From: Gammaproteobacteria bacterium
GTDB lineage: Bacteria; Pseudomonadota; Gammaproteobacteria; Xanthomonadales; SZUA-36
DNA length: 64,000 bases
Direction: 5' to 3'
Assembly (NCBI GenBank): GCA_024279945.1
Contig: JAJRRA010000048.1
Span: forward strand, 62,001 to 126,000
The notes beneath the pieces were generated by a model. That model was given only the letters and a program-made list of their open reading frames with translations. It made no database searches and was not told the DNA's origin. Both the position numbers and the translations under genes were made by a program. Position 1 is the first letter of the stretch, and the number at the start of each line of letters is the position of its first letter. Of the stretch, positions 1 to 6,132 are shown piece after piece.

Positions 1-2980
1 TATCGCCCTTTCGAAGGGCAATCAGGATGTCAAATAGCCTGCGTCCTGCGACTTTATAGTCTTCTGCATTTGGGTTGTCAGCCGGGCCACGTGCCTCCCA
101 GTGTTCCTCAAAGTCGGGAATATCATTCGATGGATCGGTCAAAAGAGCGTCGATTGCGCGTTGAACTGCAGCATGCATTTGCATGAAAGCGCTTTCCGTA
201 CGACGCCCCCCTAACTTGAGGACGTGAGTAAACAAGAAGCGGCGCGGACATTTGTCGTAGAGCGCAAGTTGTGCCGGTGTCAGGGTAACCGTTTCCTGAA
301 ATCGGACGTCTACACAGCTTGGTGAAGACGGCGGCGCTTCGGTTGCCGCCAACGGCGCTTCAATACTCACCGTATCACCGAGGCGGTCAATAAACGGCGA
401 CGACCTCTGGGAACGACCGCCTCGTTGTTTCGAAGGCGCGTAGAGAAAGAGGCTGTCTTCTGCACGGGACAAAGCGACAAAGAAGAGGCACTCCTGTTCC
501 TCATCATGACCGGGCTTAAGTGCATCGAGGCCCCGAGTACCTTCCTCATCAATTAACCCATTTGGTGGAGGCAAGGCACGAATTTGATTGGCAGACTGAG
601 GCAATGAAGCGGCGGAAAGTGAGGGCATATGCACCGCCTTGAACTCAAGTCCCTTGCTCTTGTGGATCGTCAAAAGGCGGACAGCATCGAGGGACTGGGC
701 GGCGACGGGGAGGTCCCTCAAGTCTCTTTCGTCCGACAAAATGACGAGTCGACGAATATGATCCAGCAGGTCTCCAATTGGGTAACCATGCCGCTCAATA
801 TACGTCGATCTTAGAAAGTTTTGCAGTTGCCACAGAGCAATCGCAGGCAAGGGCTCATTTCCACTCAGGCCAAGCGCATATCGTGCAGCAAGACGAGTAC
901 GATCAAGGTAGAGCGAAGCGAAAGCCCTCCAGGGTGTTGCCTCGGGCGTAAGCCCATGAAACGCCTTCGCAAGAGCGGCAAACTTGCTTGCACCTCCGGG
1001 CGAAATAACGCCTCCCGTGGGAAGTATGTCACGCCAAGCAAGCGGCTCCAGGGAAGAGGCATCAGCCAGCGCCTTTACAGCGGCCACAACGTCCGCCAAC
1101 GGCACTGAAAATTCAGGAGTTGTCGCAACCTTTACGAGTGCCATCGCACGCGGGTCGATGAGAAGAGAAAGTAGTGAAAGCGCCTCTTTGGTTGCCGACC
1201 GATCGAACAGAGGCCCCAGAAACAGGACGGGTACGTCTTGCGCTTCGAGACTGGCGGCCACCTCTGCCAGCCGATCATTCGACTTACAGAGCACAGCTTG
1301 ATTCATGTAGGTGATGCCGCTCTCCTTGCAGGCATTGATCCGAGCAGCAAGTTCATTCAGTTCGTCGTCTTTCGTGCCGACGCGCACGAAAACGGGCTTT
1401 TGGCCCGATGAGCCTCGGTGTGCTGCCGATTGAAACCCGGTTTCGGCAGCTTTCATATCTGCACACGCGAATCCTGCGTAGGCGTCACAAACCTCTTGGA
1501 CAGAACGGTAATTAACCGTCAACCCCATCGTTTGACCACCGGGAAAATCGTCGGTTTCGAATCGCACCATATTGACTGATGAGGCACCACGAAAGCGATA
1601 AATCGACTGTTTGGCATCCCCCACAACCCACAGGCCTTGTCCGTCAGGCTTTAGCGCCTTCAACAATTGGACACTTGCACGATTGACATCCTGGTACTCA
1701 TCTACAAGGACATGAGAGTAACGTGAGCATAGTTGCCCACGCACATCTGCGTCAGTCTCGATAAGCCTCACGGTACGAAATACTAGGTCGCCGAAATCGA
1801 CCGCACCACGTTCGGCTTTAAGCGCCTCGTACGCCTCATACACTTGGGCAATTTCCAAACACCTCTTGCCATGAGTGCGTTCTTCATCGGTTTGAGCCGA
1901 GTCGTATGTCGATCGCGCAAGTATTTTATAGTCTTGGTGGTCAACCACCTCGTCTTTGGCTCGGGAAATTGCAGCTAGTAGGTCCCTCAGCACATCTGTC
2001 GGATCACGTAGCTCTTTAAAATGTTGGAGATTCAACCGAACAAATTCATTCTCGACCAAGGCCACAGCTTCGGCTGTATCGAGTAGCCTCGGCTCAGCCG
2101 GTAGTGAGGCTCGCTCATGAAAACGCCGAAGAATGTCCAGCCCGAATGAATGAAAAGTGCCGATGGTCAGCTCTCCGGCCGCCTCTGGCCAAGCGGACAT
2201 CGCCCGGTCGGTCATCTCACCAGCAGCTTTGTTGGAAAATGTCAGGACAAGGATGGAAGATGGATCGACCGCAGAATCCCTAAGCGCCGCCAACCGACCA
2301 ATGAGCGTCTGGGTTTTTCCCGTGCCGGGCCCTGCTCGCAAAAGCAAAGGTCCACCACGGTGGTGTGCAGCACGGTTTTGTGCGTCGTTTAATGGCTTCG
2401 ATGGGCCGGCCTCTGAAACTTTCGGTTCTGCAATTGTGGGAAGCCAGATTGCATCAAATATCTGAACCGCGACCATGTCATAAGGCGCCCGAAGTTTTTC
2501 AGCTATTACCTGCGCGGAGAGCCCTTCTTCAAGATACCAGCGCCGAGCAAGCGTTCGTGGAAACAGGAACTCGCGCGCGAAAAGATCCATTTGCACTTCC
2601 TGCCGAGCTTTTCGACTATAGTCGACAGCTCGTTCGGCACCGGATGCACCGCCGTCCGATGGGCGGGCAGGATCAATCTCTGTGCTCGCTGTGATTTCCG
2701 TGTGTCCACCGAGTTCGGCGTGTCCAATCTCATGGGCAACAAAAAAAGCGTCTAGAAATTCATCACCCGTACGCTCGTGACGAATGGTTCCTGCAGGGTC
2801 ATAAAGCGCTCGGCCACCATTGAGCATGGCGTGTCCTGTCGGGTACCCTCGAACCTCAATATCCCGCCTCGCAGCTTCCTCCACGACAAATGCATAGGAC
2901 TGCGCTGGATCGTATCCAGCGCAGACGAGTTCATCATGCAGCGCGGCAGCACGCTGTCGGGCGAATTCAACTACGTCCAT
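1..2980 (-). CDS. ImmA/IrrE metallopeptidase - UvrD helicase - PD-(D/E)XK nuclease fusion (3' end beyond the window)
   Basis: An open frame runs from ATG at 2980 through the left edge (about 993 codons visible). I translated it by hand and checked that the motifs below share one frame. Residues 1-180 are an ImmA/IrrE-type zinc peptidase: HEIGH at 83-87 and a downstream Glu (about 128) in [15 protein letters not shown]. Residues about 197-840 are a UvrD/Rep superfamily 1 helicase: Walker A AGPGTGKT at 216-223, VDEYQD at 426-431, [13 protein letters not shown] at 454-466, then [10 protein letters not shown] and VALSRAED. From about 895 a Cas4/AddB-like nuclease region begins (CPRRF near 912); its catalytic D/E-x-K would lie outside the window. 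The start overlaps the end of the upstream gene by 14 bases. Inference: a damage- or phage-sensing protein in which helicase or nuclease activity is tied to proteolysis of a regulator. Confidence 0.88.
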
Positions 2981-3533
2981 CTAATTGGCAAAGCCGATCC
3001 AGTGCGGTCTCTTCCTGATCCGTCAAAGCCAGACCATCAAGGAACTCATCGTACTCAAGAACAGCTCCTTCATCTGGTTTTCCATCGGCCTTGAAAGCAA
3101 AACCTGTGTTCGTCCGGGGCTGGCTCCGCAAGAAGTCAACCAAAGCATGAATCGCAACGCCCAATTCACGGGCCAAGCCCGTTACAACTGGCTCCGGAAT
3201 AGAGCCAAGCCGAACCTTGCAGTCGCGCAAACCAGCAAAAAAGTCTCGAGGAAGCCCAACTTTCCGAGCCAAAGATCGGAGCTCTTCGCCAGCAAGTGCC
3301 GCTTCAACAAACGCACGACCAGGTGCTGTCGCGGAAGCTAAGATCTTTGTTTCAAGCTGTACGCTTTCCGAACCAGTACGCGCATCCGTCAATGCCAGCT
3401 CATGGTAAAGGTCTGTCAATTCCAGTGCCAAGCTGGGGTACCTGTCGATATAGCTCTTTAGAACCGCATGATTCAGCAGTTCTTCCATCGTGAACTCGTC
3501 GAGTATGTCTTCAATGTTGATGTCATTAGTCAT
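2967..3533 (-). CDS. HTH (XRE-like) protein between a sigma-like gene and an ImmA-UvrD fusion
   Basis: A protein of 188 residues. ATG at 3533 is chosen because it overlaps the upstream stop by 8 bases (ATGACTAA); a start at 3617 would run far into the upstream gene. Residues roughly 80-135 resemble an XRE/lambda-repressor helix-turn-helix: [12 protein letters not shown], then [17 protein letters not shown]. The N-terminal part is acidic and helical, and the C-terminal tail is acidic with no recognised domain. The stop falls 14 bases inside the ImmA-UvrD gene, so the two are probably translationally coupled. ImmA and IrrE peptidases cleave XRE repressors (ImmR, DdrO), so by analogy this is the likely substrate, repressor or anti-sigma of the system. 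The family assignment is tentative. Confidence 0.65.
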
Positions 3534-4353
3534 CTTGAACCTCAATGCAGAGGCGTTCGCGGATTCTTTGATAAGCACGCTTACGCATTGCTCGAATTGT
3601 CTTGGGTGTTCGACCAATTAGCTTTGCAATCGTTTGTACTTCTGGATCTTCACTTTGATCAGGATAGCCTGCTTCTTCCATATCGATCAGTCTCCTTTCA
3701 TCCTTTGGGAGAGAGTCAATCGCAACACGAAGCTGAAACCGGTAAGTTAACTCCTCTTCTGGGGTCATACTTGCTGACTGATACCGGTTCAGGCTCTCTT
3801 CCACCTCACTTTTTACATCACCACTTTCATCATATTCGAGTGGCGTCAGTGGGTTTTCTTTGGCAAAAATACTTCGAAAAGCACTAAAGCGAAGCTTTGC
3901 AACGGCGCGATCAAAGACGACTTCGTAAATGTCTAGCTTTTCCTCGTAGCTTGATCGGTCGCGAAGGAGGAGCTTAACTACGCGCTCAAGTACATGTTCC
4001 TGAAGATCGGCATACGTGCCAACTTCTACGTCAACGCCACCTGCTCCAATTTCCTTCGTCGGGCACGCATGACGAATCCGCTGTTCTAGCAGTGAGTAGA
4101 GAACGTTGAATTGGGCGTCAGACTTGTGGTGTCTCGTTTGCCTAATCCAATGGACCAAAACCTCAGAGGGTAGGTAATCAGGCGAACGTCGGTCGAGAAT
4201 GCGCGCACGCTCTCCGAACACTTCGAATGACACGCCCACAAGTTCTGCCAGCATCGTTTCGATCGGCTGCCGACGGCGGTATAGCTGACCATCTTGCTTA
4301 ACCTTGCGCAAGGGTGGGATTTCCATTGCACTATTCATTGAACCGATGTCCAT
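3526..4353 (-). CDS. Sigma-70/ECF-like sigma factor of the ImmA-UvrD operon
   Basis: The C-terminal 65 residues match sigma region 4: the lead-in VAIDSLPKDERRLIDM, then IAKLIGRTPKTIRAMRKRAY as the helix-turn-helix. The middle third (LYSLLEQRIRHACP and the following helices) could be a divergent region 2, but I do not see a clear core-binding signature. Length is 275 residues from ATG at 4353; an in-frame TTG at 4359 is possible. It is the first gene of a three-gene minus-strand operon joined by 8- and 14-base overlaps. About 70 bases of AT-rich DNA upstream could hold the promoter. Role by inference: it directs RNA polymerase to this operon or to a small regulon when released by the downstream HTH protein. 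It could instead be a sigma-like DNA-binding protein without polymerase activity. Confidence 0.65.
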   Translation of the reverse strand: MDIGSMNSAMEIPPLRKVKQDGQLYRRRQPIETMLAELVGVSFEVFGERARILDRRSPDYLPSEVLVHWIRQTRHHKSDAQFNVLYSLLEQRIRHACPTKEIGAGGVDVEVGTYADLQEHVLERVVKLLLRDRSSYEEKLDIYEVVFDRAVAKLRFSAFRSIFAKENPLTPLEYDESGDVKSEVEESLNRYQSASMTPEEELTYRFQLRVAIDSLPKDERRLIDMEEAGYPDQSEDPEVQTIAKLIGRTPKTIRAMRKRAYQRIRERLCIEVQDD

Positions 4354-4427
4354 ACTCAAAGTTTGAATCCAACCGAAAGGCCTAAGTGCTTAATTCAATT
4401 TCATATTTATATGCCACTGTGAAATAA

Positions 4428-5036
4428 CTATCTTGTGACATAAACTAAACCCATATTCCCACGGTGTCTCACCACCTCTATTACCCGAGCAGCTTGCCTG
4501 CTATCAATTTCCGATCCATGTAATCCACCCTCTTTGGCTCTGAGGTTTTCAACGGCAAGCGCTTCCGTCAAAGCATCTAAAGACGGACCTCTGTGACTGC
4601 ATGGCAAATTCAGTGCCTGCGCCCAGGGGATAGCGGCTTTCTGACTACAAAACACCCCTTGAATTGGAGGCATTGCCAATCCGTATCGCGCAACATGATC
4701 CAGCAGGATTGGCCAGTCATAACTCGCATTATGAATGACGATAAGTTGATGCTTCAGATATTCGGCAATCTGCTGCCACTGGGAATCAAAGGAGTCAAAT
4801 GCGGCAGCCTGTTCGTTGGTAATGCCGTGTATCGACTGCGCTTCTTCTGAAATGCGTTTTTGTGGTCTTGTCTTGAACTCGACGGATTCCGCAATCTCTC
4901 GATTTCTCACCACTGTGATGCCAAGCGTCACGATATCCGGCGGACCGTTTTCGCCAGGCAGTCCGGTGGTTTCGGTATCGAGGACGATGTAATCGTCCGG
5001 GAGTTGGGTGAAGATCCACAGTAGATCTTTATACAT
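4428..5036 (-). CDS. DnaQ-like DEDDh 3'-5' exonuclease
   Basis: A protein of 202 residues with the three exonuclease motifs of the epsilon/DnaQ family: Exo I IVLDTETTG, Exo II VIHNASYDWPIL, and Exo III in the C-terminal LHGSEIDSRQAARV. These place the catalytic D, E, D, H and D. ATG 5036 is chosen because AGGAG at 5046-5050 lies 9 bases upstream; in-frame TTG 5045 and ATG 5042 are too close to that site. It directly follows the RES toxin gene, overlapping it if the upstream starts are used, so it is probably the third gene of the toxin-antitoxin transcript. It is shorter than and unlike the replicative epsilon subunit, so it is more likely an accessory nuclease acting on DNA or RNA. Confidence 0.8.
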   Translation of the reverse strand: MYKDLLWIFTQLPDDYIVLDTETTGLPGENGPPDIVTLGITVVRNREIAESVEFKTRPQKRISEEAQSIHGITNEQAAAFDSFDSQWQQIAEYLKHQLIVIHNASYDWPILLDHVARYGLAMPPIQGVFCSQKAAIPWAQALNLPCSHRGPSLDALTEALAVENLRAKEGGLHGSEIDSRQAARVIEVVRHRGNMGLVYVTR

Positions 5037-5041
5037 TGCCA

Positions 5042-5734
5042 TCAACTCCTGGCACTGCCGTCCAGGGATTCAACATTCACAACTGACCCCTGTTCATAGT
5101 GGTATCGCAAATATCGCCAGTGGATGGCATCCGAGAGCGCCTTGGGACGCATCAACCCATGGCACTCCCCTTTCGCTCTCACGCTCTGGTAGTGAATGCC
5201 GAAGCCATTAGCACCCCGCAACGTATAGCCGAGTTTCTGTGCTTCACTGTAATCATCGGGATCGTAGATAGCGTTTCCGACCAGGTGCCGCACATCGTGA
5301 AGGGTTGTCGGCCCCAGCTGCGCGCGGATAACGCGCATCTCCTGGGTGGTCTTGTAGATCTTGGATTCACGTAGGAATCGTGCCCGATGAAAGGATGATT
5401 CGGCGATGGCCACCGATTCATCTGCGGCGCAATAATAGATACCGAAATCCCGATTGAAGCGGCCACCTCGTCCATCCACCGGGGGGTGAGTGAAGGCCGC
5501 CATGATCCAGGACGCTCCATCGCCATACACCCGATCTTCCGGTGGCACCAGGCGAATATCACCCACCTCATCCCGTAACCTGGGGTTGGTCAGGGACTCC
5601 ACGGCATAGAGCACGTCCCAATCCTGCGCATTGGAGACGCGTTCGAACAGGTGGATCTGCGGATAGCGCGACAGAATGACCCGATAAACCGGTTCATTTA
5701 CCTCGCTACCCGGTAGCGTATCGATGTCGATCAC
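5042..5734 (-). CDS. RES-domain toxin (NAD+-degrading) of a RES-Xre toxin-antitoxin pair
   Basis: A protein of 230 residues with a RES domain over about residues 80-215. Conserved stretches include GGRFNRDFGIYYCAADESVA followed by IAES, which supply the family's Arg, Tyr and Glu. Characterised RES toxins (ParT, MbcT, Res) are NAD+ glycohydrolases, phosphorylases or ADP-ribosyltransferases that stop growth by draining NAD+. The GTG start overlaps the antitoxin stop (GTGA), which implies translational coupling in the order antitoxin then toxin. The length is normal and no key segment appears to be missing. The next gene downstream encodes a DnaQ-like exonuclease in the same operon, which I do not recognise as standard for this family. 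Confidence 0.9.
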   Translation of the reverse strand: MIDIDTLPGSEVNEPVYRVILSRYPQIHLFERVSNAQDWDVLYAVESLTNPRLRDEVGDIRLVPPEDRVYGDGASWIMAAFTHPPVDGRGGRFNRDFGIYYCAADESVAIAESSFHRARFLRESKIYKTTQEMRVIRAQLGPTTLHDVRHLVGNAIYDPDDYSEAQKLGYTLRGANGFGIHYQSVRAKGECHGLMRPKALSDAIHWRYLRYHYEQGSVVNVESLDGSARS

Positions 5735-6132
5735 CAGCCACCCCGCTCCGCATCGAGGAAATTCCTAACCACGACGAGATCCACCACTTGTCCGGCCAGC
5801 AACCGATCCAGCGGGGCCGTGCCATTGAACAACGGGTTGTCGTTGGGGGTAGCCAGCCACTGATCGGCCAACGCCTGATCAGGCAACAGGATTTGCAGGG
5901 ATTGGTAGATCCCCAGGATATAGCTGGCCCGTTCCAGTAGGTCCCTGGTTAACTTGGCTTTTTCAGGCTGGCTCTTCCAGTTATAGAGAGTCTTCTCGTT
6001 GCTGAGCCCCAACAGGGTCATCTGCTGGGCGCCGGTCAGGCGCCACTGGCTGAAAATAGCGAAAATCGCCGGTAGCAGTGAACTGGTTACACTGGAACCA
6101 CGTTGCAGCAGTTGTTCGACTTGAGCAATCAT
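5731..6132 (-). CDS. Xre/MbcA/ParS-type antitoxin (DUF2384 C-terminal domain)
   Basis: A protein of 133 residues. The N-terminal half has an Xre-like helix-turn-helix (QQMTLLGLSNEKTLYNWKSQ). The C-terminal half (about 70-133) has the DUF2384 toxin-binding fold: ASYILGIYQSLQILL, then WLATPNDNPLFNGTAPLDRL. Antitoxins of this family plug the RES active site and repress their own operon. ATG 6132 has a good ribosome site (AAGGAG about 8 bases upstream). Two perfect ACTGTA-N4-TACAGT palindromes lie just upstream and are probably its operators. Confidence 0.9.
   Translation of the reverse strand: MIAQVEQLLQRGSSVTSSLLPAIFAIFSQWRLTGAQQMTLLGLSNEKTLYNWKSQPEKAKLTRDLLERASYILGIYQSLQILLPDQALADQWLATPNDNPLFNGTAPLDRLLAGQVVDLVVVRNFLDAERGGW

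Follow-up and report, generated by a model that had tools for sequence, protein, structure and literature searches.

The closest described relatives of the locus reported here pair a zinc peptidase with a helix-turn-helix (HTH) protein. In PprI/IrrE-DdrO of Deinococcus and in ImmA-ImmR, a HEXXH zinc peptidase has an XRE-like partner; PprI, like CapP, cleaves its repressor when activated by single-stranded DNA (ssDNA) (PMC10904395). CapH + CapP, CapW or CapK + CapS are associated with Bub operons and place them under damage-responsive control (PMC13373217). According to the authors of that study, protection against phage has yet to be shown for Bub operons, and both the function of Bub-type operons and the sensing of DNA trouble by such different controllers are open questions (PMC13373217). 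Here, we describe three genes at the start of a 64,000-nucleotide stretch from a Gammaproteobacteria bacterium (the window; C49:62001-126000, C49 being contig JAJRRA010000048.1 of the 3.9 Mb assembly GCA_024279945.1). They encode a predicted sigma factor of the extracytoplasmic function (ECF) type (SIG), an XRE-like protein (HTH) and a fusion of an ImmA/IrrE peptidase, a UvrD helicase and a degenerate PD-(D/E)XK domain (ImmA-UvrD). We consider it probable that these genes form a dedicated controller of the ubiquitin-like conjugation operon directly downstream, in which the helicase-peptidase would cleave HTH and so release the action of SIG on two promoters. Bare coordinates are relative to the window, C49 coordinates to the contig.

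All three controller genes lie on the minus strand in the order SIG, HTH, ImmA-UvrD (Table 1). An earlier note on this DNA had described three coupled genes with overlaps of 8 bases (SIG/HTH) and 14 bases (HTH/ImmA-UvrD), and the coordinates agree. It had also read a HEIGH zinc peptidase, a UvrD helicase and the start of a PD-(D/E)XK nuclease in one chain, a composition borne out by Pfam, with the nuclease domain completed outside the window. The three genes make up the first half of a cassette of six, as the operon continues past base 1 of the window into three ubiquitin-like conjugation genes. These encode tandem ubiquitin-like domains with an E2-like domain (Multi_ubiq + Prok-E2_E), a JAB-E1 protein (Prok-JAB + ThiF) and a small metal-binding protein (DUF6527), which is the 6e or Bub-type gene set, corresponding to row 6e of Iyer et al. 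2006 (PMC1779556). The JAB-E1 frame opens with a GTG codon, and the E1 start may be internal. Its JAB part carries HTHPGGMAEFSDQD, which on reading the sequence matches the JAMM pattern HxH-x7-S-x2-D. Given the strict genetic coupling of the six genes, in an operon that makes and breaks protein-protein bonds, the ImmA domain might process or remove the ubiquitin-like modifier, or the three upstream proteins might belong to the conjugation machinery. This we regard as highly improbable: the operon already has a JAB with an intact-looking HTHP...S..D motif, plus DUF6527, and both SIG and HTH resemble transcription proteins.

Table 1 Features of the six-gene cassette and its upstream neighbours. 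ORF, open reading frame.
Feature	Position	Strand	Basis and remarks
SIG, predicted ECF-like sigma factor, 275 residues	3526..4353 (ATG 4353, stop 3526)	-	ORF, profiles, model; first operon gene
Promoter-like element inside SIG coding sequence, TACCGGT-N14-GCGATT	3718..3744	-	Genome pattern search; directed at HTH + ImmA-UvrD
HTH, XRE-like protein, 188 residues	2967..3533 (ATG 3533, stop 2967)	-	ORF, model
ImmA/IrrE-UvrD-degenerate PD-(D/E)XK protein	1..2980 (ATG 2980)	-	Pfam; last 407 bases left of window; complete gene C49:61594-64980, 1128 residues
polyUbl-E2 protein, 304 residues	C49:60595-61509		Multi_ubiq 1e-25, Prok-E2_E 2e-41; outside window
JAB-E1 frame, 497 residues	C49:59198-60691		ThiF 7e-29, Prok-JAB 2e-7; outside window
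DUF6527 protein, 122 residues	C49:58827-59195		DUF6527 2e-24; outside window
DEDDh 3'-5' exonuclease	4428..5045	-	RNase_T 2e-16; 74 bases upstream of SIG
RES toxin	5042..5734	-	Pfam RES 1.6e-27
Xre/MbcA/ParS antitoxin	5731..6132	-	Xre_MbcA_ParS_C 1.5e-9

The locus resembles CapH + CapP in that genes for a peptidase and an HTH protein stand side by side immediately before an immune-type operon. CapP was also the only solved structure matched by a profile of the ImmA domain, at a non-significant E-value of 0.15, and the N-terminal domain of CapH is among the structural neighbours of HTH. In contrast, CapP is a small separate protein (291 residues in 7t5t), whereas the peptidase here shares one chain with UvrD and a degenerate nuclease. 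The HTH domain is placed in the middle of its protein, and the set further comprises a gene for a sigma-like protein and a pair of promoter-like elements. PprI/IrrE-DdrO and ImmA-ImmR likewise come without a helicase fusion, a dedicated sigma factor or a ubiquitin-like operon. CapK + CapS, found upstream of Bub operons, is a controller of two proteins that responds to DNA damage (PMC13373217), but it consists of a kinase and a STAS repressor, without protease, helicase or sigma factor. Circuits of the sigmaE/RseA type share a sigma factor (here with a sigmaE-like model), a small neighbouring partner and a protease; they use membrane proteolysis, whereas the peptidase here would be cytoplasmic and helicase-linked, with HTH as a putative anti-sigma. 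Controllers of adjacent immune-type operons are therefore known as such; new here are the helicase-peptidase fusion with a dead nuclease, the putative dedicated sigma factor and the pair of promoter-like elements, one of the two being intragenic. No sigma-HTH-ImmA/UvrD controller was described in the literature searched, which excluded key Bub and CapH + CapP papers, and Padloc and NCBIfam scans returned generic helicase and sigma matches only, with no named system.

A genome scan with SIG gave 80 loci, found mostly in alpha-, beta- and gammaproteobacteria and also in Acidobacteria, Verrucomicrobia and Myxococcus. HTH follows SIG in all of them except three truncated loci, and ImmA-UvrD follows HTH in nearly all loci of sufficient length, the exceptions being L085 and L066. 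The same order in about 80 genome loci is far beyond chance, and the earlier note was right to treat the three genes as one set: SIG and HTH are conserved beside ImmA-UvrD homologues elsewhere, contrary to the lack of a conserved neighbourhood that the note had named as a refutation. The downstream genes could be assessed in the 72 loci that extend >7 kb beyond SIG (own locus and plasmids included), and in 69 of them profile searches place polyUbl, E1 and DUF6527 after the module. Of the three exceptions, L006 has annotated insertion-sequence genes following the module, while L046 gave no match to the usual three ubiquitin-like genes, its downstream genes being unannotated. L010 encodes a 170-residue protein that, by eye, resembles two ubiquitin-like domains, together with DUF7665, JAB-like and E1-like proteins.

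To avoid circularity, the helicase protein served as an independent anchor in a search of about 1,150 genomes, taken in three draws. Ten loci besides the own locus were obtained, 8 of them with SIG, HTH and the ubiquitin-like genes. In L143 and L144, the most distant pair, two small upstream genes stand in the same order but have diverged beyond the profiles, and a DUF7665-type operon lies downstream of the fusion gene. An alternative conjugation-type operon, with the composition given for L010, is seen behind the module at L010:12081-15015, L143:9586-12401 and L144:9017-11880, with DUF7665 as what may be its E2-like part. Families 8 and 11, considered as divergent downstream genes, were dismissed with profiles as long antisense ORFs opposite polyUbl and E1.

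The module is one of several possible controllers of such operons, as in a draw of 369 genomes only 2 of the 14 genomes with Multi_ubiq carry it. The Multi_ubiq operons of L123 and L124 instead have a separate ImmA/IrrE gene beside a small gene (HTH_3 in L124), in the style of CapH + CapP. At L124:5149-9429, an HTH protein, an ImmA/IrrE peptidase and a UvrD helicase with an intact-looking nuclease are encoded as three genes divergent from the Multi_ubiq operon; these are the same parts unfused, and L124 is a possible unfused relative of the module. Among viral contigs, one truncated SIG relative was the only match, and in that collection the module is therefore no frequent cargo of phages.

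The fusion protein looks like a DNA sensor rather than a nuclease. Pfam identifies Peptidase_M78 (ImmA/IrrE, 5e-8, above the cut-off), UvrD-helicase (2e-62) and, on the complete domain, PDDEXK_1 (9e-16), with HEIGH at residues 83-87 and the Walker A motif GPGTGKT at 217-223. Conservation was computed over 82 full-length homologues, in all of which the ImmA domain is fused to UvrD. H83, E84, H87 and E128 (HEXXH plus the downstream glutamate), Walker A K222 and D427 E428 of motif II are invariant (82/82), as are the four cysteines 911, 1105, 1108 and 1114. The C-terminal domain is recognised by Pfam as PD-(D/E)XK in 36/36 members, and its profile found no solved structure. The acid of the nuclease D-x-K motif is acidic in 0/82 and mostly replaced by arginine. 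The unfused UvrD-nuclease relative in L124 has DFK in the same alignment column, an active-site control that argues against an alignment slip as the cause of the missing acid. Loss of this acid, while the peptidase, the helicase and the four cysteines remain invariant, suggests a protein that grips DNA without cutting it, and the four-cysteine domain probably holds an iron-sulfur cluster.

The UvrD domain matches GajB among other defence helicases, and defence-type genes (AbiE, RES/Xre) occur nearby. The fusion could on these grounds be a stand-alone anti-phage effector, a helicase-nuclease of Gabija or RecB kind with its own regulators, for which the ubiquitin-like genes are mere neighbours. 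Of the alternatives weighed here we find this the least probable. Gabija GajB and RecB/AddB-type proteins do share the UvrD-family helicase, and the four-cysteine PD-(D/E)XK fold is that of AddB/Cas4-type nucleases, but here ImmA is fused and the catalytic acid is absent throughout the 82 homologues, a loss read against the L124 control. The ubiquitin-like genes also follow the module in nearly all testable loci and share its DNA element, and no GajA was present among the six proteins scanned (1 to 6132). The earlier note had taken the three genes themselves for the response; this part is not supported, since with a ubiquitin-like operon next in 69/72 loci and a degenerate nuclease they appear instead to control an operon whose kind is known.

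The first gene, which the earlier note called sigma-like, models as an ECF-like sigma factor. The Pfam family Sigma70_r4_2 matches the host SIG weakly (0.0019) and is detected in 43/58 family members (best 7.7e-11), while the SIG profile matches FliA at 2e-4. The AlphaFold model has a predicted local distance difference test (pLDDT) score of 84, and its top Foldseek matches are E. coli sigmaE (in complexes), followed by other sigma factors. On model superposition, region 4 aligns to sigmaE with Z 8.5 and a root-mean-square deviation (rmsd) of 2.0 Å over 68 residues. Region 2 gives Z 7.2 and rmsd 2.9 Å over 89 residues, below the safe level for helical bundles; it is likely rather than proved, because structure is its sole basis and helical bundles score easily.

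For the second gene, the same note had suggested a possible XRE-like protein, and the HTH model (pLDDT 84) indeed contains an XRE-like domain at residues 73-140. Its structural neighbours include NGO0477 and three substrates of ImmA/IrrE-type peptidases, CapH, DdrO and ImmR, the last three being weak matches (Z ~4), and the HTH profile found no solved structure at a useful E-value. The protein is absent from 60 host relatives, hence no comparison could be drawn from these genomes. A K-[SA]-x-x-K-P stretch at residues 148-153 is conserved in the family, with P153 present in 58/58, and falls in a low-confidence linker of the model. By analogy with DdrO (PMC10904395), this linker is a reasonable candidate for the cleavage loop.

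A promoter-like element links the three genes to the downstream operon. In the gap between the helicase stop and polyUbl, the sequence reads TTWCCGGT, with CGATT following 14-15 bases on. The element (TWCCGG-N15/16-CGATT), searched as CCGG-N15/16-CGAT[TC], precedes polyUbl in 76/82 loci, and in most loci it is also found inside SIG, with a spacer of 15 or 16. In 1.9 Mb of loci, some of which overlap, there are 133 matches to a strict form, against ~0.3 expected from base composition. Within SIG, the codons over the element are near-fixed across ~90 loci: R207 is CGG in 89/91, A213 is GCG in 89/89 and I214 is ATT in 81/92. Among 43 conserved codons, none is as biased as these three and that of L217, which reach 0.8 to 2.0 bits compared with a median of 0.08; the related sequences are non-independent, and the other conserved codons of the same genes serve as the control. 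These near-frozen codons are a striking example of a site of regulatory type preserved within a gene in several phyla. The own genome has the pattern at both operon sites, with the intergenic copy at C49:61565-61591, and in two unrelated places; the latter, antisense in a peptide chain release factor gene and within an oxidoreductase gene, were rejected as functional copies and taken as chance. The CGATT form was unseen in 12 scanned Multi_ubiq operons that are without the module, two of which have scattered CGATC matches.

The two boxes, the 15-16 base gap between them and a T shared at 12 bases from the beginning of the second box give the element the layout of a sigma promoter. The element predicts a position for the transcription start, so that a single reporter would suffice to test the hypothesis. 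Alternatively, the element might not be a promoter and might serve in cis in another way, for example in recombination or at the RNA level. HTH + ImmA-UvrD lie between two copies of the same orientation, and two loci are missing most or all of the sensor gene in between: in L085 (10562-11621) the ImmA-UvrD gene is gone without trace, and in L066 (10562-12179) it is mostly deleted, with the last part left. Both loci keep the ubiquitin-like gene(s) and both copies of the element, so the deletions are not crossovers between the copies. The spacer is moreover free in sequence and near-fixed in length, and the third shared feature, the T, falls at the expected start site. We therefore judge a cis site of this kind improbable.

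A further possibility is the plain logic of CapH + CapP, in which HTH is a DNA-bound repressor of both elements that is cut by the peptidase, and SIG an accessory activator or a non-sigma DNA-binding protein. The XRE-like domain of HTH, resembling CapH, DdrO and ImmR, is in keeping with this, as are the CapH/CapP-like gene pairs beside other Multi_ubiq operons (L124 and L123) and the published association of CapH + CapP with Bub operons (PMC13373217). The element itself is, however, asymmetric, its two boxes and gap of 15-16 being -35/-10-like, unlike the dyad usual for a dimeric XRE repressor. The SIG gene also carries the element, and SIG models with both sigma domains. On balance we consider this plain CapH + CapP logic rather unlikely.

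A protease-HTH-sigma switch is the best reading of the three genes. The gene set and order, the residue conservation, the two DNA elements, the degenerate nuclease and the island insertion (below) are direct observations on which the following scheme is built. The helicase would engage abnormal DNA such as ends, gaps, stalled forks or phage DNA, with the degenerate four-cysteine PD-(D/E)XK domain helping to hold it uncut. Engagement would activate the zinc peptidase, which would cleave HTH, probably in the K-[SA]-x-x-K-P loop. HTH would normally keep SIG inactive, or else repress the SIG promoters; freed SIG could then fire two cognate promoters with the same boxes, the one inside the SIG gene feeding back on HTH and the sensor and the one before polyUbl driving the ubiquitin-like genes as output, possibly in defence or repair. 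The most specific form of this scheme, that a helicase-coupled protease acts on an XRE-like anti-sigma, thereby frees the dedicated sigma factor and so couples ATP-driven DNA surveillance to a ubiquitin-like pathway through promoters of which one lies in the sigma's own coding sequence, we put forward tentatively, at somewhat less than even chance. To the controllers already described, the set would add one that combines a DNA motor with a pseudo-nuclease, a sigma factor of its own and a promoter code that can be read, and a single bacterial operon would join DNA surveillance, regulated proteolysis and ubiquitin-like tagging.

Several points count against this scheme. Pfam region 2 models matched no SIG sequence among the family members scanned, and both SIG and HTH score only modestly in the structural comparisons. 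The element could bind HTH instead of SIG. As copies before SIG occur only in a few, mostly sphingomonad loci, simple SIG autoregulation is not general. L085 and L066 retain SIG, HTH and both elements despite loss of the sensor, which suggests that the sensor may be dispensable or that these loci are decaying. Cleavage, DNA binding and transcription are predictions from sequence and models. The copies before SIG, third in number, are found in L042, L043, L044, L045, L049, L056 and L060, and suggest autoregulation in those loci.

The cassette has been inserted between the housekeeping genes guaA and tadA. These two genes are adjacent in two genomes of the same genus, and guaA stands next to tadA in 16/19 relatives read. 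In the own genome they are separated by ~11.3 kb that hold the operon, the RES/Xre pair, the exonuclease and a TetR-like gene (by eye). The RES, Xre antitoxin and DEDDh exonuclease genes (4428-6132, minus strand) overlap by 4 bases each and form a separate operon upstream of SIG. The exonuclease was no recurrent neighbour of the module in the compared loci and is not a conserved part of it. A homologous RES/Xre pair adjoins the ubiquitin-like operon in L042, L043 and L045, making it an occasional module neighbour.

Other genes accompany the module elsewhere. Directly upstream of SIG and in the same direction, 15 beta/gamma-proteobacterial loci (including L064, L066, L070-L072, L075 and L080-L087) carry genes for an AAA ATPase and for a subtilisin-like protease, the latter often ~50 bases from SIG. 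The two may provide an additional input or represent a defence pair linked to the module. Toxin-antitoxin genes of the AbiEi/AbiEii type are found at the flanks of the module in 15 loci, for example L009, L012-L014, L025, L026, L031, L062 and L068.

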